Shown here piece after piece: positions 21,910-29,704 of a stretch of DNA of 64,000 bases. The translations under genes were made by a program, and so were the position numbers. This DNA is from Roseococcus pinisoli (GTDB taxonomy: Bacteria > Pseudomonadota > Alphaproteobacteria > Acetobacterales > Acetobacteraceae). Position 1 is the first letter of the stretch; every line of letters starts with the position of its first letter. The stretch covers positions 248,001 to 312,000 of the forward strand of contig NZ_JAHCDA010000004.1 in the NCBI RefSeq assembly GCF_018413645.1, in the 5' to 3' direction. A model generated the notes under the pieces. The model was not told the origin of the DNA and searched no databases. It was given only the letters and a program-made list of their open reading frames with translations.

Positions 21910-22281
21910 TCAGAGGTGCCGCATCTCCTCGGCAATCGCCTCGAGCTCGGCCAGGACCTCCGCCAGCGCATTCTCCGGCGGGGCTTCCCCCATCTGCTGC
22001 TCCGGCTCGCCCTCGCCCAGCAGGCGCTGCACGCCCTTGATCGTGTAACCCTGCGTGTAGAGCAGGTCGGATATCCGCTTCAGGAGGGCGAGATCCTCCG
22101 GGCGGTAGTAGCGCCGCCCGCCACCGCGCTTCAGCGGCTTCAGCTGCGGGAACTTCGTCTCCCAGAATCGAAGGACGTGCTGGGGCACGTTGAGCTGGTC
22201 CGCCGCCTCGCTGATGGTGCGGAAGGCCTGGGCCGATTTGCGCAGCCGGGGCCGATCCTCTAGATCAGGCGACCCACTCAC
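21910..22281 (-). CDS. MerR-family transcriptional regulator
   Basis: A 123-residue MerR-type regulator. The winged-helix DNA-binding part is [45 protein letters not shown] (residues 21-65), followed by a short dimerisation helix and an acidic C-terminus. There is no cysteine-based metal site, so it is not a classical metal sensor. It starts with a GTG that overlaps the ihfA stop by 4 bp. An ihfA-merR pair is conserved in alphaproteobacteria, usually directly after plsX-fabH; here those genes are 4.8 kb away. The regulated genes are not known. Confidence 0.87.
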
Positions 22282-22616
22282 GCGCCGCGAGCCTTCATGC
22301 CCTCGGCCTTCGGCTCGGTGGCAGGCAGACTGTCGCCGTTGATTCGTGCCTTGAGCACCTGGCTGGGCCGGAAGGTCAGCACGCGACGCGGGAGAATGGG
22401 GACTTCAACGCCCGTCTTGGGATTGCGGCCGATCCGCTCTCCCTTCTGCCGAATGAGAAAGGTGCCGAACCCGGAAATCTTCACGGAATCACCCGTTTCC
22501 AGCACGGTGGCGACGCGTTCGAGCACCGCCTCCAGCAGGGCGGCCGATTCGTTGCGGGACAGCCCCACCGCCACATAGATGGCTTCGGCGAGTCCCGAGC
22601 GCGTCAACGTCTCCAT
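22278..22616 (-). CDS. ihfA: Integration host factor subunit alpha
   Basis: A 112-residue HU/IHF-fold DNA-bending protein that pairs with IhfB. The start [20 protein letters not shown] fits IhfA, followed by [48 protein letters not shown], the beta-arm with its intercalating proline. The ATG at 22616 is preferred over an in-frame TTG at 22628 because it matches the family start. It overlaps merR by 4 bp. The upstream 199 bp to the SGNH gene presumably carry the promoter, since fabH is not adjacent here. Confidence 0.93.
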
Positions 22617-22815
22617 GGCGTCACTCAACCCTGCAAGTGCTTGAAGCGGCAGGAAAGCCGGTAAGCGGCCCTCACGTCAACCTTGTTTCGCAATCGGCGG
22701 ATGGCGGGCGGTGCGCCCGGCCTTCGCCCCTCCCCGGTGAGCCTAGTCCTTCACCGATCATTCACCAGGGCCCTGCCAAGGAAGCGGCAGGCCCCAGGAA
22801 GGAGTCACGACCGCC

Positions 22816-23433
22816 ATGATCCCGCTCCGCCGGAATCTCGCCGCTTCCCTCTTCGCCTCCCTGGCGCTGGCCTTTGTCGCCACCCCGGCCGCCGCCACGC
22901 CCGCCGCCGTCTCCGCCGAGACCAGCTGCCCGGACATTCTCCTCGGCGACAGCCTCGCCGTCGGCATGGGCCCCTATGCCCAGGCGCTCGGCTTCGAGGT
23001 CATTGCCCAGGGTGGCGCCGCCCTCAACTGGCTCCGCGCCCAGGAGCCGCGCTGCGCCCGGCGGCTGGTCCTGGTCTTCGGCACCAACGATCTGCGCGGC
23101 ATGAGCGCGGCCGAGGTGCAGGCCTATCCCACCCGGATCGCCGAGATCATGGCGCGCTGGAACGCGGAGCAGGTGATCTGGGCCACGCCTGGCTGCTTCT
23201 CGCAGGACAGCGTGCTGGAGCGTGGCAGCGTGGCGCTGGACCGCGCGCTGGCACAGGCGCAGCGGCAGGCTTCCGACCAGCTGCGCGACCTTCCCGCCAT
23301 CAATTCCGGCCGGCAAATGCGCTGCAGCTTCCCCTCGCGCGACGGCATCCATCCGGCGACCGGGACGGCCTATCAGGCCTGGTGGACCGGCCTTACGCAG
23401 ATCCTCGGGCGCTACCCGGTCAGCGGCGCCTGA
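22816..23433 (+). CDS. SGNH/GDSL-type hydrolase (exported)
   Basis: A 205-residue protein with a Sec signal peptide (about 31 residues, PAAATPAA region). The SGNH fold has block I GDSLAVGMG (Ser nucleophile near residue 45), a block II glycine, block III GTNDLRGM and block V DGIHPATG with the Asp/His pair near the C-terminus. It probably acts as an esterase or acyltransferase on a periplasmic or surface carbohydrate. It converges with the small membrane protein gene of the acyl-transfer locus and is one of three SGNH enzymes within 4.6 kb. Confidence 0.85.
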   Translation: MIPLRRNLAASLFASLALAFVATPAAATPAAVSAETSCPDILLGDSLAVGMGPYAQALGFEVIAQGGAALNWLRAQEPRCARRLVLVFGTNDLRGMSAAEVQAYPTRIAEIMARWNAEQVIWATPGCFSQDSVLERGSVALDRALAQAQRQASDQLRDLPAINSGRQMRCSFPSRDGIHPATGTAYQAWWTGLTQILGRYPVSGA

Positions 23434-23434
23434 T

Positions 23435-23734
23435 TTAGCGTCCCGTCGCCAGCACTTCCCTGACGGCCTTCAGCGCCTGCGGGAGGCCGATGGCGGAAAG
23501 GGCGTCGTTCCAGCCCTCGGCGACGGCGATCAGCGCCTCCGTCCCGGGCAGGACCGGCAGACCATAGGCGGCGTCCACGATCGCTTCCGACCGGCCCGCC
23601 AGCAGGATCAGCCAGACCAGCACCAGCGCCAGCAGCGCCCCGCGCCAGGGCATGGTGGCCGTGGCGGGCGAGAAGTCGTCCGGCGCGCGGCGCGAAGGCT
23701 CCGTGCCGGGAGGGTTGAGCCAGGGTTGCTGCAT
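23435..23734 (-). CDS. Small membrane protein of unknown function, downstream of MBOAT gene
   Basis: A 99-residue protein, not recognised. The N-terminus (about 28 residues) is polar and Pro-rich, followed by a membrane helix (ALLALVLVWLILLAG, residues 33-47) and a 50-residue amphipathic C-terminus probably outside the membrane. GGGAGAGG immediately precedes the ATG. It begins 10 bp after the MBOAT stop on the same strand, and is 1 bp from the convergent SGNH gene's stop. Its position suggests an accessory subunit of the acyltransferase complex (inference). Confidence 0.65.
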   Translation of the reverse strand: MQQPWLNPPGTEPSRRAPDDFSPATATMPWRGALLALVLVWLILLAGRSEAIVDAAYGLPVLPGTEALIAVAEGWNDALSAIGLPQALKAVREVLATGR

Positions 23735-23744
23735 CCTCTCCCCC

Positions 23745-25127
23745 TCAGAACTGGAAGTAGATGAAGGGCGCCACGCCCTCGGGCCCGGCCAGCAGGATCG
23801 CCAGCAAGGCGAGGCCCAGCGCCGCGCCCAGGACCGGCGCCGGCAGCGGCCGCAGCCGGTCCTCGATCCGCTCGCGCAGGTCGGGCGGCAGGAAGTGGAT
23901 CGCGAGGCCGAGCGCGGCCAGCGCCGCGAGGCGCCAGGTGACGGCCTCGCTCGGCAGCCCGTCCACCAGGCCCGCCGCCAGCGCCGCGACGGTGCCGAGA
24001 TCCGGCGCGCGGAACAGGACGAAGGCCAGCATCACCACGTGGAAGGTGATCAGCCAGCGCAGCAATATCGCGCCCTTGCCCACCGGCCGGGCGCGGCCGC
24101 CCAGTGCACGCTCCACCGCCAGGGCCGCCCCATGGATCGCGCCCCAGAGGAGGAAGGTCCAGTTGGCGCCGTGCCAGATGCCGCCGAGGACCATGGTGGC
24201 CATCAGGTTGAAGCGCGTGCGCGCCTCGCTGCCGCGGTTGCCGCCGAGCGTGCGGATATAGAGGTAGTCGCGCAGCCAGGTGGAGAGCGAGATGTGCCAG
24301 CGCCGCCAGAACTCGGAGAGCGAGACGGCGCGGAAGGGCTGGTCGAAGTTCTTCGGGAAGTGGAAGCCGAGCAGCGCCGCGAAGCCGATCGCCATGTCGG
24401 AATAGGCCGAGAAGTCGCAGAAGATCTGGATCGTATAGCCGTAGCAGGCCAGCACGATGTCCCAGGCGCCATAGGCCGTGGGATCGCGGAAGACGGGATC
24501 GACGATGCCGGTCGCGAGCTCGTTCGCGATCACCATCTTCTTGAGCAGCCCGCCCAGGATGAGGATCCCCGCCATCGCGACGGGAATGCGGTAGCGATCC
24601 GGCGGCACCCGCAGCTGCGGCAGGAAGTGCGCGGCCCGCACGATCGGCCCGGCCGCGAGATGCGGGAAGAAGGTCAGGTAGACCAGCACGTTCAGCGGGT
24701 TGGTCTCCACCTCCGCATCGCCGTCATGGACGTCGACCATGTAGGAGATGGCCTGGAAGCAGTAGAAGGAGATGCCGACGGGCAGCACCACATCGAGGAT
24801 CGGTGCGGGAAAGCCGAGCCGGGCGACGATCTCCTGCAGGAAGAAATTCGCGTACTTGAAGTAGAAGAGCCAGCCGAGCGTGCCGGCGACGCCGATCCAG
24901 AGCGCGACGCGCGATCTCCCCTTCGCCGAGATCAGCCCCACCCCCCAGGTCCAAAGCCCGACGGCGATCAGCGCCGCGCAGAACTCCACGCTCCAGAAGG
25001 CGTAGAAGGCGAGGTTCGCCCCCAGCAGGAACCAGCGGTCGAGCGACGGCCGGACGCGCACCAGCGTCCAATGCCCCAGGAAAACGACCGCGAAGAAGAG
25101 CGCGAAGATACCGGTCGGGAAAAGCAC
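23745..25127 (-). CDS. MBOAT-family O-acyltransferase, AlgI-like
   Basis: A 460-residue polytopic inner-membrane protein. It carries the MBOAT hallmarks: YFKYANFF, LPVGISFYCFQAISYMVDV, SEFWRRWHISLSTWLRDYLYI and the catalytic-histidine segment GGIWHGANWTFLLWGAIHG (about residues 305-325). AlgI-type proteins move acyl groups across the membrane for O-acetylation of an extracellular polysaccharide such as alginate or cellulose. The start is a GTG 3 nt after the stop of the upstream SGNH gene. No alginate or cellulose synthase genes are nearby, so the acceptor polymer is unknown. Confidence 0.9.
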   Translation of the reverse strand: MLFPTGIFALFFAVVFLGHWTLVRVRPSLDRWFLLGANLAFYAFWSVEFCAALIAVGLWTWGVGLISAKGRSRVALWIGVAGTLGWLFYFKYANFFLQEIVARLGFPAPILDVVLPVGISFYCFQAISYMVDVHDGDAEVETNPLNVLVYLTFFPHLAAGPIVRAAHFLPQLRVPPDRYRIPVAMAGILILGGLLKKMVIANELATGIVDPVFRDPTAYGAWDIVLACYGYTIQIFCDFSAYSDMAIGFAALLGFHFPKNFDQPFRAVSLSEFWRRWHISLSTWLRDYLYIRTLGGNRGSEARTRFNLMATMVLGGIWHGANWTFLLWGAIHGAALAVERALGGRARPVGKGAILLRWLITFHVVMLAFVLFRAPDLGTVAALAAGLVDGLPSEAVTWRLAALAALGLAIHFLPPDLRERIEDRLRPLPAPVLGAALGLALLAILLAGPEGVAPFIYFQF

Positions 25128-25130
25128 CGG

Positions 25131-26474
25131 TCAGGCGTTCGATCGCTGGGGGCGGAGGCCGGCGCCGTGCAGGATATGCGCGTAGAGCTTCTCGGCGGTG
25201 AGACGGTAGCCGTCCGGCGTGAAATGCACGAAGTCGCCGCGCATGAGCGGCGCCTCGCCGCTCGCGAGGGCCTGCAGGCGGCAAGGGCTGTGCGTCACCT
25301 CGGCGCTCCAGTCGAAGAAGGCGACCCGCTGGCTCTGGGCCACGGCGCGCTGCACGGCACGGACCTGCGAGATGGAGACCAGGGGCCGGGCGGCGGCGCA
25401 GCCGATCGGCTGGCGCTGCTCCACGAGGCGCCGGCCGCGGCGGATCGGCGGCAGGCGGACCGGCCGGGCGGCATCGGGCACGCCCATCAGCATGATGCCG
25501 CTGCGGGGCAGGATCTGTCGCAGGCGCTGGATTTGCTGCGTGAGCGCCGCCGCATAGGCGTCGCCGTCGAAATCCGGGTCGGTCGCCTCGTTGGTGCCGA
25601 ATTCCAGCACGAGCAGCGCCGGCGGCCGGGCCACGAGCTCCCGGCGCATGATCTCGGGATCGCGATTCTCCAGCGAGGACAGCGTGGCGCCGTTGATGCC
25701 GAAGGCCTCGACCATGACGCCGCGGGTCCGGCGCTCGATGCCCCAGCCCAGCATCTCCACCACGCCGTCGCCGGTGAGCTCCAGCGCGATCTCGCGGCTG
25801 CCGGCCGGCACGTCCAGGAGCATCGGCCGGAACTCCGGCCTCGACGACTTCAGCGTCGCGGGGCCGATCCAGTTGTCGTCCACCCGCAGCCGGAAGCTGC
25901 CGGCCTCGGGCCCGGCGAGCATGGCCAGGTGAACACGGTCGAAGCCCTCGGCCTCGTTGGAGCGCAGGGTCACGGTATCGCCCGCGCCCGATCCGCTGAG
26001 ACGGTAGCCCGTGATGCCGAAGGGCCCGGGCGAGGAGGAGCGCAGCGCGCTGCGCGCCGTCCATTCGCCGGACTGGCCGAGCGTGACATAGGAAGGATTG
26101 AAGAAGCGCTGCGCCTTGCCCGGCGCGAGCCGCCCGACGCCCGCCGCCCCGAAGCGCGACTGGAAGAGGCCGCGCAGATGCTCGACCATCACGGGGCCGG
26201 CGGAATGGCTGTCCCCCATGATCGTCACCAGCGCCCGCGCCTCGCGATTCCCGCGCTCGATGCCGCGCAGCGCAGCCCCCAGCGGCGCGAAGGAATCGCC
26301 CCCCGTGCTGGCCGGCAGGACCGATGCCATCGATGGATCGGGCCCCGTCTCCGCGACGAAGATCGGATCCCGCCCGGGCGGCAGATCGCCTGCTCCGCGG
26401 GGGATGGAGGCACCGCCCTGGCAGCCGGCGAGGCCGACGCCCATGACAGAGAAAAAACCTCGGCGCTTCAGCAT
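25131..26474 (-). CDS. SGNH/GDSL-type lipoprotein hydrolase, O-acetylation partner of MBOAT
   Basis: A 447-residue protein with a lipobox (VGLAGC, Cys near residue 18), so predicted to be lipid-anchored. The SGNH motifs are widely spaced: block I GDSHSAGP near residue 88, FGTNEATD in the middle and a C-terminal DFVHFTPDGY with the Asp/His pair. The 150-residue insert between I and III resembles a carbohydrate-binding beta domain. It lies directly upstream of the AlgI-like MBOAT gene (3-nt gap), the arrangement seen for AlgI with AlgJ/AlgX-type acetyltransferases. It likely transfers the acyl group to a glycan. Confidence 0.85.
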   Translation of the reverse strand: MLKRRGFFSVMGVGLAGCQGGASIPRGAGDLPPGRDPIFVAETGPDPSMASVLPASTGGDSFAPLGAALRGIERGNREARALVTIMGDSHSAGPVMVEHLRGLFQSRFGAAGVGRLAPGKAQRFFNPSYVTLGQSGEWTARSALRSSSPGPFGITGYRLSGSGAGDTVTLRSNEAEGFDRVHLAMLAGPEAGSFRLRVDDNWIGPATLKSSRPEFRPMLLDVPAGSREIALELTGDGVVEMLGWGIERRTRGVMVEAFGINGATLSSLENRDPEIMRRELVARPPALLVLEFGTNEATDPDFDGDAYAAALTQQIQRLRQILPRSGIMLMGVPDAARPVRLPPIRRGRRLVEQRQPIGCAAARPLVSISQVRAVQRAVAQSQRVAFFDWSAEVTHSPCRLQALASGEAPLMRGDFVHFTPDGYRLTAEKLYAHILHGAGLRPQRSNA

Positions 26475-26555
26475 TTCATCGGGCTCGGCACTTCATCATG
26501 GCCATGCCCGTGATATAGCTGGCCCCTGCTGGTCTGTCCCCTCGGAGAACGCGGC

Positions 26556-27383
26556 GTGGCCGTCGGTATTGATGATTTCGTGACCTGTCGCCGACGTCTT
26601 CTCCGGAGTGCTTTGACACTCCTCCCGCTGTCGGGAGCGGCCCTTTCCGGCCCCGCCACCGCGCAGACCGCCGCCCCGCCCGCACCTGCCCCCACCCCAG
26701 CCGGCGATGCCCGCACGCCGCCCGATCAGGTGCGGATCCTTTTCTGCGGCGATTCGCTGGCGCAGGGCATGTTCCTCTCGCTCAACGGCATCCTCCGCCG
26801 GCGCGAGGGCGTGCGGGCCGTCAACGGAACGCTGCATGCCACCGGCGTCACGCGCAGCGACGAGCACGACTGGCCCACCGCCGCGCGCGACCTCGTGGCG
26901 CGCCATCGTCCCAACCTCGTCGTCTACTGGATCGGCGCCAACGACTTCCGCCCGCTCGTCGTGCGCGAGCAGCGGCTCCGATTCGCCTTCGGCACCGCAG
27001 GCTTCGCCGAGGCCTATGGTCGTCGCGTCACCGAGATGGTGGAGCCGGCCCTCGCCTCCGGCGCGCGCGTGGTCTGGTTCGGCCTGCCCAATATGCGCAA
27101 CGCGCAATTCGCCGGCGCCGCGCGGCAGCTCAACGAAATCCAGCATGATGCGGTGACCATCGCCGGCGGCGCCTGGATCCCGACCTGGGACGCGACGAGC
27201 GACCCCGAGGGCCGCTTCACGCCGAGCGTCACGCTCGAGCGCGGGCCGCGCACCTTCCGCGCGGAGGACGGCGTTCACTTCACGGATTGGGGATACCGGC
27301 GGATCGCGTCGCTCTTCTTCAACGAGGTCGATCATTTCTTCCCGGAGCTGGCTCCAGGGTTGGGCGGCCTCAGCGTCGCCTGA
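26556..27383 (+). CDS. DUF459/SGNH-type hydrolase (exported)
   Basis: A 275-residue protein with a signal peptide (LLRSALTLLPLSGAALSGPA, ending near residue 37) and a Pro/Ala linker, then an SGNH domain of the DUF459 kind. Block I is FCGDSLAQGMF (Ser near 66), block III IGANDFRP and block V EDGVHFTDWGYRR. The start is GTG with GGAGAA 6 nt upstream. It diverges from the SGNH-MBOAT operon and ends 47 bp from the convergent fabH end. It is probably a third acyl esterase or transferase in the same surface-glycan pathway, inferred from location. Confidence 0.85.
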   Translation: MAVGIDDFVTCRRRLLRSALTLLPLSGAALSGPATAQTAAPPAPAPTPAGDARTPPDQVRILFCGDSLAQGMFLSLNGILRRREGVRAVNGTLHATGVTRSDEHDWPTAARDLVARHRPNLVVYWIGANDFRPLVVREQRLRFAFGTAGFAEAYGRRVTEMVEPALASGARVVWFGLPNMRNAQFAGAARQLNEIQHDAVTIAGGAWIPTWDATSDPEGRFTPSVTLERGPRTFRAEDGVHFTDWGYRRIASLFFNEVDHFFPELAPGLGGLSVA

Positions 27384-27430
27384 CGTGGCGGACCGCTAAC
27401 CAGTCTCTGGTCGAATGGCCGCGCCGCCGC

Positions 27431-28384
27431 TCAGAAGCGGACGAGCGCGGCGCCCCAGGTCAGGCCGCCACCGATGGCCTCGAGCAGCACGAGGTCACCC
27501 GGGCGGATGCGCCCGTCGCCCACCGCCTCGGCCAGCGCCAGCGGCACGGAGGCGGCCGAGGTATTGGCGTGCCGGTCCACCGTCTTGACGACGCGGTCGG
27601 GGGAGAGGCCGAGCTTGCGGCCCATCGCATCGATGATGCGGATATTCGCCTGGTGCGGCACCAGCCACTTCACATCGGCCTTCTCGACCTTGTTCGCGGC
27701 CAGGGCCTCGTCCACCACGGCGGAGAGCTTGTTGACCGCCTGCCGGAAGACGAGGTTGCCCGCCATCTTCAGCGGGCCGGTCGTGCCCTCGACATAGAGA
27801 ATGCCGGCCTGGCTGCCATCCGCATGCAGATGGGTGGAAAGCACGCCGCGATCGCCCGGCTCGTCCTCGGCCCGCAGCACCACCGCCCCCGCGCCGTCCC
27901 CGAAGAGGACGCAGGTCGAGCGGTCGGACCAGTCGAGGATACGGGAATAGACCTCGGCGCCGATGACCAGCACGCAGCGGGCCTGGCCCGCGCGGATCAT
28001 CGCATCGCCGACGGAGAGGGCATAGATGAAGCCCGTGCAGGCGGCCGAGACGTCGAAGGCGAAGCCCTTCTTCACGCCCAGCGCCGCCTGGATATGCGCG
28101 CCCGTCGAGGGGAAGGCGTTGTCCGGCGTGGAGGTGGCGCAGATGATGCCGTCGACCTCGGAGGGATCGATGCCGGCCTGAGCCAGGGCCCGGCGGGCCG
28201 CCTCGGCGCCCAGCGAGGTCGCGGTGTCGTCAGGGCCGGCGAGGTGGCGCTGGCAGATGCCGCTGCGCTCCCGGATCCATTCGTCGCTCGTGTCCAGACC
28301 GAACTTCGCGGCCAAGGCCGCATTGTCCAGCACGTTGGACGGAAGATGGCCGCCGCAGCCGGCGATCACGGAACGAAGGGACAA
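27431..28384 (-). CDS. fabH: Beta-ketoacyl-ACP synthase III
   Basis: A 317-residue condensing enzyme that starts fatty acid synthesis by joining acetyl-CoA to malonyl-ACP. The catalytic triad is visible: Cys116 in AACTGFIYAL, His244 in VPHQANIRI and Asn274 in RHANTSAASV. The length is normal. It follows plsX by 6 bp on the same strand, part of the rpmF-plsX-fabH operon that links phospholipid and fatty-acid synthesis. In many alphaproteobacteria ihfA-merR follows directly; here fabH is followed by convergent SGNH genes. Confidence 0.95.
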   Translation of the reverse strand: MSLRSVIAGCGGHLPSNVLDNAALAAKFGLDTSDEWIRERSGICQRHLAGPDDTATSLGAEAARRALAQAGIDPSEVDGIICATSTPDNAFPSTGAHIQAALGVKKGFAFDVSAACTGFIYALSVGDAMIRAGQARCVLVIGAEVYSRILDWSDRSTCVLFGDGAGAVVLRAEDEPGDRGVLSTHLHADGSQAGILYVEGTTGPLKMAGNLVFRQAVNKLSAVVDEALAANKVEKADVKWLVPHQANIRIIDAMGRKLGLSPDRVVKTVDRHANTSAASVPLALAEAVGDGRIRPGDLVLLEAIGGGLTWGAALVRF

Positions 28385-28390
28385 GGCTGG

Positions 28391-29470
28391 TCAGTCCTGT
28401 TGAGCGACGATCGGGGGAATGGCCACGGGCGACGAAGCGGCCGCGAGCTGCGAAAGGCTCTCGCGGATCGTCTGCGTGAAGCCGTGCGTCACCATGTCCA
28501 TGGCCACATCCACCGCATGGGCGAAGCCGGTCGCGTCGGTGCCGCCATGCGACTTCACGACCACGCCGTTGAGGCCAAGGAGAATAGCACCGTTATAGCG
28601 GCGCGGGTCCATCCATTCGCGCAGCCGCTCAAGGGCCGGGCGCGCGAGGAGGTAGCCCATGCGGGCCGGGATGCTGGAGGTGAAGACCTGCTTCAGCAGC
28701 TCGCGCATCAGCTTGTAGACGCCCTCGCCGGTCTTGAGCGCGACATTGCCGGTGAAGCCGTCCGTCACCACGACGTCGACGGTGCCGGCGGAGATGTCGT
28801 GCCCCTCAACGAAGCCGTGGAAATTCAGCCCGGCATGGCCGCGCAGCACCTCGGCCGCCTCGCGCACGCGATCGTCGCCCTTCAGCTCCTCGGAGCCGAC
28901 GTTGAGCAGGCCGATGGTGGGGCTGGGCAGGCCGAGCACGGCGCGCGCGAAGGCGTCGCCCATGATGGTGAATTCGACGAGGTTCCGGGCGTCGCACTGC
29001 ACATTGGCGCCGAGGTCCAGCATGACCACGTCGCCGCGCAGCGAGGGCGCGATGGCGGCCAGCGCGGGCCGGCTGATCTCGGGCATCGTCTTGATGACGA
29101 TCTTGGCGAGCGCCATGAGCGCGCCGGTATTGCCGGCGGAGACGACGCCGGAGGCCTCGCCCGAGGCCACCGCGTCGATGGCCATGCGCATGGAGGATTT
29201 GCGGCCCTGGCGCAGGGCCTGGGTCGGCTTCATGTCGCCGGGAATGGCGTCCGGCGCGTGGCGCAGGACGCAGATCTTCGCAGCGCGCGGCCGGCGGGCC
29301 AGCGCGTCGCGAAGTCGTGCCTCGTCACCGAACAGCAGGAACTGCGCCTGGGGATGCCGCTCGGCGGCGAGCTCCAGCCCGTCCAGGACACTGTCCGGCG
29401 CGTGGTCTCCCCCCATCGCGTCGATGGCAAGGGAGAACCTTCGCAGGCTTCCTTCGGCTGGCGCCGCCAT
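28391..29470 (-). CDS. plsX: Phosphate acyltransferase PlsX
   Basis: A 359-residue enzyme converting acyl-ACP and phosphate to acyl-phosphate for phospholipid synthesis. Family marks are LAIDAMGGDHAPDSVLDGL near the N-terminus, ASGVVSAGNTGALMALAK around residue 120, VMLDLGANVQCDARNLVEF, and VDVVVTDGFTGNVALKTGEG. The ATG at 29470 has AGGTG upstream; a GTG two codons earlier is less likely. It lies 33 bp after rpmF and 6 bp before fabH. Confidence 0.95.
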   Translation of the reverse strand: MAAPAEGSLRRFSLAIDAMGGDHAPDSVLDGLELAAERHPQAQFLLFGDEARLRDALARRPRAAKICVLRHAPDAIPGDMKPTQALRQGRKSSMRMAIDAVASGEASGVVSAGNTGALMALAKIVIKTMPEISRPALAAIAPSLRGDVVMLDLGANVQCDARNLVEFTIMGDAFARAVLGLPSPTIGLLNVGSEELKGDDRVREAAEVLRGHAGLNFHGFVEGHDISAGTVDVVVTDGFTGNVALKTGEGVYKLMRELLKQVFTSSIPARMGYLLARPALERLREWMDPRRYNGAILLGLNGVVVKSHGGTDATGFAHAVDVAMDMVTHGFTQTIRESLSQLAAASSPVAIPPIVAQQD

Positions 29471-29503
29471 GTTCACCTACGAGGCGCCCCCCTGCCGGTC
29501 ACG

Positions 29504-29704
29504 TTAGGCGCGGACCACGCCCTTCAGCGCGTCAGCGGCCGCAACCTCACGGCCGTCGTAGTGACCGCAGGAGGAGCAGACGTGATGCGGGCGCTTCAGC
29601 TCGCCGCAGTTGGAGCACTCCAGGTGCGCCTCCTTGGCGACCGCGTGATGGCTGCGGCGCATGCCCATGCGAGAGGGCGAGACTTTCTTCTTAGGGACGG
29701 CCAT
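29504..29704 (-). CDS. rpmF: Ribosomal protein L32
   Basis: A 66-residue large-subunit ribosomal protein. The basic N-terminus [20 protein letters not shown] is typical, followed by a zinc ribbon with CSNC and CSSC pairs (residues 30-33 and 43-46). It is the first clear member of the rpmF-plsX-fabH cluster and lies 118 bp after the DUF177 gene, the usual partner of rpmF. Confidence 0.97.

Follow-up and report, generated by a model that had tools for sequence, protein, structure and literature searches.

What separates fabH from ihfA in Roseococcus pinisoli, and what do the products of the intervening genes acylate? We examined a stretch of 64,000 nucleotides from contig NZ_JAHCDA010000004.1 (hereafter the window), in which a preliminary description had placed the fabH and ihfA halves of a conserved gene order on one strand at a distance of about 4.8 kb and had listed between them three SGNH genes, an MBOAT gene, and a gene for a small membrane protein. 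Gene calls and profile matches confirmed both the coordinates and the content. Between the end of fabH at 27431 and ihfA at 22628, both on the minus strand, lie 4,802 bases that hold, along the direction of fabH-ihfA transcription, a DUF459 SGNH gene (opposite strand), an SGNH gene with a split domain, the MBOAT gene, the gene for a 99-aa transmembrane (TM) protein, and a further SGNH gene, SGNH1 (opposite strand). The three insert genes on the strand of the flanks are tightly spaced, with 3 and 10 bases between neighbors. We consider the insert to be probably an alphaproteobacterial cassette for peptidoglycan O-acetylation, which was gained once and in which the small protein takes the place of PatB's own membrane anchor.

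Core enzymes of the cassette

The core enzymes match PatA, PatB, and Ape1 by sequence, by residues and, for PatB, by fold. The DUF459 protein scored 170.6 bits on its Pfam profile against a cut-off of 27.2, a phmmer comparison with the PatB structure 7trr gave 1.8e-24, and the catalytic-type residues Ser67, Asn129 (block III), Asp238, and His241 are all kept. An AlphaFold model of residues 48-275 had a predicted local distance difference test score (pLDDT) of 94.7; its five best matches in the PDB were PatB/CJ0610C chains (4.4e-18 to 9.1e-16), and the next was another GDSL protein (5.3e-8). The model shows additional pairs of strands at its residues 87-96 and 177-186 (134-143 and 224-233 of the protein), which we equate with the two wing hairpins of PatB described in PMC12148441. 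The N-terminus resembles a signal peptide by eye, about 59 residues precede the SGNH domain, and the protein seems to lack the N-terminal anchor (TM segment plus helices) of Neisseria-type PatB. DUF459/PatB sequences have been counted at 208, all gram-negative (PMC9487903).

The 447-aa SGNH protein matched structure 4k3u across residues 37-431 and carries the motifs GDSHSAG at 87, GINGAT at 259, and DFVHF at 414. We take 4k3u to be Neisseria Ape1, although it is labeled only as GDSL-like in the table of matches; Ape1 of a Neisseria-like patA-patB-ape1 locus (L104) looks nearly the same as this match.

Genome contigs were scanned with the Ape1-like family, and the best 80 of 472 confirmed loci, which we refer to as the named loci, span Acetobacteraceae, Sphingomonas, Brevundimonas, Nitrospirillum, Magnetospirillum, Parvibaculum, Stella, and others. 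An FxYxxF C-terminus occurs in 72 of the 73 MBOATs of at least 500 bits in these loci, the exception (L197) containing runs of N, and His319 and Tyr457 of the window MBOAT are invariant across 19 aligned proteins. In a tree of MBOATs, 21 alphaproteobacterial proteins stood beside PatA of 33 nonalphaproteobacterial loci with a Shimodaira–Hasegawa-like approximate likelihood ratio (SH-aLRT) of 82, seven of 40 such loci having been excluded by thresholds on length or score or as sequence duplicates. Of the four AlgI-like MBOATs included from Roseococcus, three stood apart, and the fourth (L055) fell near the base without a firm position.

Two more MBOAT genes in the source genome (L001 and L003) group as AlgI-like, and behind the L003 gene comes a protein that is AlgJ/AlgX-like by eye. 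Two deltaproteobacterial/myxobacterial loci (L178 and L182) have an Ape1-like protein and a long MBOAT open reading frame (ORF), 737-765 aa from stop to stop, ending in FIYFQF; in the stretch available, neither a DUF459 PatB nor a small gene was seen, and both loci were left aside.

A small membrane protein behind the MBOAT

We assessed 75 of the 80 named loci, after dropping two without an MBOAT above the limit and three with fewer than 450 bases downstream. In 66 of the 75, the MBOAT gene is directly followed, on the same strand, by an ORF of 60-190 aa that contains a single strongly hydrophobic stretch. Among the exceptions, the small gene follows an extra SGNH gene in L174, L197 was read through N, L165 has a truncated MBOAT frame and then a small-protein tail, L178 and L182 showed no small gene, and in L194 the small gene is fused to patB. 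As a control, the same rule found a small TM ORF behind 67 of 71 MBOATs, 4 of 80 Ape1 proteins, none of 72 PatBs, and 17 of 189 other long coding-like ORFs, when MBOATs below 500, Ape1 below 280, and PatB below 150 bits were left out. A profile of the small protein gave 15 matches in 289 alphaproteobacterial genomes, including the source genome. Fourteen of them immediately follow an MBOAT that ends in APFIYFQF, and the fifteenth is at a contig edge; this search is not fully independent, as some of the genomes also supplied rows of the profile.

The AlphaFold model of the small protein (pLDDT 87) has helices at residues 30-47 (the TM helix), 49-57, 65-82, and 84-98, and the block from residue 31 on reaches a pLDDT of 91-97. 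These modeled helices resemble the N-terminus of PatB, a TM helix followed by two peripheral helices (PMC12148441). At L194:3998-5701, the small-protein domain (profile E 4.9e-9) lies in frame N-terminal to PatB in the order TM segment, helices, proline-rich linker, and SGNH domain, which is the architecture of Neisseria-type PatB; a separate small gene was not seen after the MBOAT of this locus. The genome, Roseomonas genomospecies 6 ATCC 49961, is presumably Azospirillum-like. In all 39 nonalphaproteobacterial loci that have both genes (40 examined, mostly of one family), the PatB reading frame begins no more than 400 nt from where patA ends; the anchor is therefore encoded where the small gene lies in alphaproteobacteria. 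From the architecture, the gene position, and the one gene fusion, we read the small protein as a split-off PatB anchor.

The points that speak against this reading begin with the partial overlap of genomes and profile rows mentioned above. In three further exceptions (L196, L213, and L219), the candidate small gene is on the opposite strand and has a weak profile match (E 0.02-0.09). L194 is the only PatB fusion found, and a composition bias of 12 bits stands against its score of 35. Two alphaproteobacterial PatBs (L114 and L116) have a hydrophobic N-terminus, possibly a TM segment of their own; N-termini were checked for TM segments in some members of the set. Finally, an hhalign comparison of 23 small-protein sequences (reduced to 85% identity, L174 and L196 excluded) with 61 Neisseria-type PatB N-termini (reduced to 90%) gave a match whose register was plausible but which was not significant (probability 3%, P 0.015), and a broad small-protein hidden Markov model run over 30,881 ORFs matched no nonalphaproteobacterial PatB. 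We therefore do not claim sequence homology between the small protein and the Neisseria-type PatB N-terminus.

The same two negative comparisons leave room for a different role, which is compatible with the enzyme assignments: the small protein, which adjoins the MBOAT and is a membrane microprotein like DltX, might be a DltX-like carrier, or might serve only the MBOAT, as its regulator or in its assembly. We regard this as possible but rather unlikely. DltX bears the shuttle Tyr of the Dlt system, whereas here that Tyr is on the MBOAT, which has its own FxYxxF C-terminus, and the motif occurs in none of 14 aligned small proteins; the DltX-like carrier was rejected for lack of this motif. In L194, moreover, the small protein is fused to PatB and not to the MBOAT, and the modeled helices resemble a PatB N-terminus.

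In Roseomonas acroporae (L174), the extra gene between the MBOAT and small TM genes encodes a small SGNH protein. In Siccirubricoccus phaeus (L025 and L165), the MBOAT frame breaks off near its midpoint, and a small-protein tail comes after it, as in a decayed or misassembled cassette. The copy of the small gene on a Sphingomonas sp. R1 plasmid is annotated as a hypothetical protein, and the cassette there reads GDSL, GDSL, MBOAT, and hypothetical protein.

Proposed mechanism and substrate

In the characterized systems, PatA acetylates a Tyr of its own C-terminal hexapeptide, PatB moves the acetyl group to peptidoglycan, and ape1 mutants are hyperacetylated (PMC12148441). The same PatA-PatB acyl relay is likely here because of the conserved residues. 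By analogy with the characterized relatives, the MBOAT would take acetyl from acetyl-CoA and load it onto Tyr457 of the C-terminal FIYFQF, and this tail would pass it on the periplasmic side to Ser67 of the DUF459 PatB. PatB would then set the acetyl group on the C6 hydroxyl of MurNAc, blocking lytic transglycosylases and lysozyme, and the Ape1-like esterase would strip it when the wall must be cut. The 99-aa TM protein would replace the N-terminal anchor of Neisseria-type PatB and hold the soluble PatB beside the MBOAT, as suggested by its architecture, its gene position, and the fusion in L194.

We infer peptidoglycan to be the substrate. The pairing of Ape1 with PatB fits peptidoglycan, but is not independent support, the esterase having been the query of the scan. 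The preliminary description had proposed the O-acylation of a surface glycan by an AlgI-like MBOAT with no polymer synthase nearby. Acyl transfer and the MBOAT identity hold, and the label AlgI-like can be refined, since the tree places this MBOAT nearer to PatA than to three of four AlgI-like Roseococcus MBOATs; a surface-glycan target is less well supported, because the core enzymes match PatA, PatB, and Ape1. With peptidoglycan as the likely target, the absence of a polymer synthase nearby would be explained, as this polymer requires no dedicated synthase in the neighborhood. At 13 cassette loci, we picked 20 flanking ORFs by length and codon G+C, of which 17 have a Pfam match. They have mostly unrelated functions, and flanking genes were dropped as a clue to the substrate; two of the 20, both in Sphingomonas, are PF07486 cell wall hydrolases, and no polysaccharide synthase is among the 17.

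Several observations weigh against the assignment to peptidoglycan. The chemistry is proposed from homology, and the MBOAT tree has long branches, for which long-branch warnings were given. Block II of window PatB is Ala, as compared with Ser in Neisseria and Asn in Campylobacter PatB (PMC12148441), and its wall positions are Phe and Val. Among alphaproteobacterial PatBs, block II is Ala in 36, Ser in 24, and hydrolase-like Gly in 13 of 73, and a polar residue occupies the first wall position, which is Phe in window PatB, in 13 of 74. Window PatB scored 89.9 bits on the NCBIfam PatB equivalog NF045704, whose cut-off is 580, and we do not assign it to that equivalog. In the family of genome G203, which is probably Neisseria-like, this model matched in 37 of 83 genomes and exceeded the cut-off in 14; the PatB search in the class of G203 gave a match in 1 of 274.

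It would be in keeping with some of these features if the module acetylated another periplasmic or surface glycan, such as cellulose, exopolysaccharide, or lipopolysaccharide, with PatB-like and Ape1-like proteins recruited to it: alginate and cellulose, too, have their MBOAT/SGNH pairs (PMC12148441), the source genome has two further AlgI-like MBOATs, and window PatB is only about 25% identical to Neisseria-like PatB and differs in block II. We nevertheless find this improbable, as the esterase matches the peptidoglycan esterase along most of its length, the nearest folds to the transferase are PatB rather than AlgX or AlgJ, and the matched flanking ORFs include the two cell wall hydrolases and no polysaccharide synthase.

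Comparison with known systems

The cassette shares with the patA-patB-ape1 clusters for O-acetylated peptidoglycan (OAP) of Neisseria, Proteus, Campylobacter, and others an MBOAT with an FxYxxF tail, a DUF459 transferase, an Ape1 esterase, and contiguous genes. It differs from them in its gene order (patB-ape1-patA-small gene), in the separate TM protein behind patA, and in a PatB that, in the window, seems to have no N-terminal anchor; we hence regard it as a variant and not as a canonical cluster. In addition, alphaproteobacterial patB and ape1 are divergently oriented in 31 of the 73 loci that have both, mostly in Acetobacteraceae. By our reading of its Table 1, a 2018 review lists no alphaproteobacterium among gram-negative OAP clusters with ape, and a footnote to that table states that there are homologues of PatA or PatB elsewhere that do not belong to such clusters (PMC6174289). 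We found no report of the alphaproteobacterial four-gene cluster in the open-access literature searched, most subscription papers lying outside the search.

The Dlt system for the D-alanylation of teichoic acid (DltB-DltX-DltD) is likewise a three-part system of an MBOAT, a TM microprotein, and an SGNH transferase (PMC12148441). Besides the different position of the shuttle Tyr, the window MBOAT scored 184 bits on the DltB model, for which the cut-off is 375. The AlgI/AlgJ/AlgX alginate and WssHIFG cellulose acetylation systems also pair an MBOAT with an SGNH partner, and a shared acyl-Tyr relay has been proposed (PMC12148441). The SGNH partners here are, however, DUF459 and GDSL_2 proteins, and the MBOAT falls outside the AlgI-like group; an alginate or AlgI assignment was disfavored by the partner type and the MBOAT tree.

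We lean, by a modest degree, toward the view that Alphaproteobacteria have a three-part peptidoglycan O-acetylation machine composed of PatA, a PatB that is secreted and soluble, and a TM microprotein that is obligate, the last being the detached PatB anchor and a DltX-like scaffold without the shuttle motif. If so, anchoring and acyl carriage, which are joined in DltX, are separate functions here, and the fourth gene, a hypothetical protein in one annotated copy, is given a testable job. The view would qualify the statement, made in PMC12148441, that MBOAT/SGNH pathways other than Dlt have no DltX-like membrane microprotein. It also predicts O-acetylated peptidoglycan in many alphaproteobacteria, including the laboratory strain Methylorubrum extorquens AM1; this modification has been tied primarily to pathogenic species (PMC6174289).

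Insertion history

The family sample comprised 80 genomes, 78 of them with plsX, from which 34 plsX loci were examined, nearest first and then a hand-picked spread; one (G044) belongs to Roseococcus. In 23 of the 34, ihfA lies 63-600 bases past fabH (between match ends) with merR behind it, and in the other 11 no ihfA was found behind fabH in the 296 to 11,967 bases of sequence available. The module stands between fabH and ihfA in none of the 34, and the arrangement is thus not common to close and distant relatives alike. The Ape1-like gene is sporadic, occurring in 6 of the 80 family genomes, including the source genome.

Within Roseococcus, 11 of 21 genomes carry an orthologous MBOAT (75-100% identity; other MBOATs of the genus are 37-45% identical). 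The module lies between fabH and ihfA in three of these carriers (G000, G085, and G096), and contigs end beside it in two (G095 and G097). In the remaining six (G083, G087, G088, G091, G093, and G094), it is beside ihfA-merR with plsX-fabH elsewhere; no fabH was found within 4-5 kb on the other side of the module, and no ihfA within 1.6-9.7 kb behind plsX-fabH. Among the 10 noncarriers, fabH and ihfA are 67-122 bases apart in six, and no ihfA was found within 0.7-9.5 kb behind fabH in four. In a tree of PlsX, FabH, IhfA, MerR, and Apt, the 11 carriers form one clade (bootstrap/SH-aLRT 90/87), which requires one change. The empty site in relatives and the single clade of carriers uphold the first description of an inserted acyl-transfer module. 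The simplest history is a single gain between fabH and ihfA in one Roseococcus clade, a real insertion, after which plsX-fabH parted from the cassette and ihfA within a subclade of six genomes (loci L047, L049-L053, and L059-L064).

Although the module is widespread in Alphaproteobacteria and may have been present somewhere in the genome of the family ancestor, it is barely credible that the arrangement is ancestral and contiguous fabH-ihfA arose secondarily through loss of the module in other lineages, given the 34 family loci without it, the single change within the genus, and the absence of ihfA and merR from the examined flanks of cassettes of the Falsiroseomonas group, which the cassette tree shows as sister to those of Roseococcus. 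A mobile element was also rejected: the repeats seen at the two ends of the insert seem fortuitous, the G+C content there is like that of the flanks, and none of the five genes encodes a recombinase.

SGNH1 and relatives of the cassette

The coordinates of the insert and its flanks are given in Table 1. SGNH1 scored 27.8 bits on Lipase_GDSL_2, below the curated cut-off of 32.9, and has the motifs GDS, GTND, and DGIH. By our own reading of the sequence its block II is Gly, as in esterases, and it is perhaps a second esterase.

Table 1 Features of the insert and its flanks in the window
Feature	Position	Strand	Evidence
rpmF	29504-29704	-	66-aa ORF, L32-like sequence, named by eye
plsX	28391-29476	-	TIGR00182, 326 bits
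fabH, upstream flank of the insert	27431-28384	-	TIGR00747, 402 bits
patB-like DUF459 SGNH gene, probably a secreted O-acetyltransferase	26556-27383	+	DUF459, 3.4e-50
ape1-like esterase gene, 447 aa, SGNH domain split by an inserted domain	25131-26474	-	phmmer with 4k3u, 9.5e-20
patA-like MBOAT acyltransferase gene	23745-25127	-	Pfam MBOAT, 1.1e-28; ends in FIYFQF
Small-protein gene, 99 aa, single TM, proposed split-off PatB membrane anchor	23435-23734	-	Alignments, gene position, model, L194 fusion
SGNH1, small SGNH protein, accessory fifth gene	22816-23433	+	Pfam Lipase_GDSL_2, 4.4e-6
ihfA, downstream flank of the insert	22278-22628	-	NF001401, 132 bits
merR-family gene, downstream of ihfA	21910-22281	-	Pfam MerR_1, 2.3e-22

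SGNH1 profile matches were present in all 11 cassettes of the genus and in five of eight Falsiroseomonas-group cassettes (L146, L147, L150, L152, and L164); none was found in the available stretches of L148, L149, and L151. The cassette tree, which left out L155, L157, L165, L174, L178, L182, L183, L196, L201, L210, and L213, shows the Roseococcus and Falsiroseomonas-group cassettes as sisters. This suggests that the five-gene form predates the insertion.

Seven plasmid records had Ape1 matches, of which four are chromosome-sized Proteus or Neisseria records that we take to be mislabeled chromosomes. Cassettes are present on the Methylorubrum extorquens AM1 megaplasmid, in the order patB-ape1-patA-small gene, and on the Sphingomonas sp. 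R1 plasmid, and a patB-ape1-MBOAT group is at the record edge of a Novosphingobium humi plasmid (L258, L259, and L260); the module may therefore travel. One contig assigned to Anaerolineae by binning bears a cassette that hardly differs from an alphaproteobacterial cassette (L195 and L171), which probably reflects a binning error.

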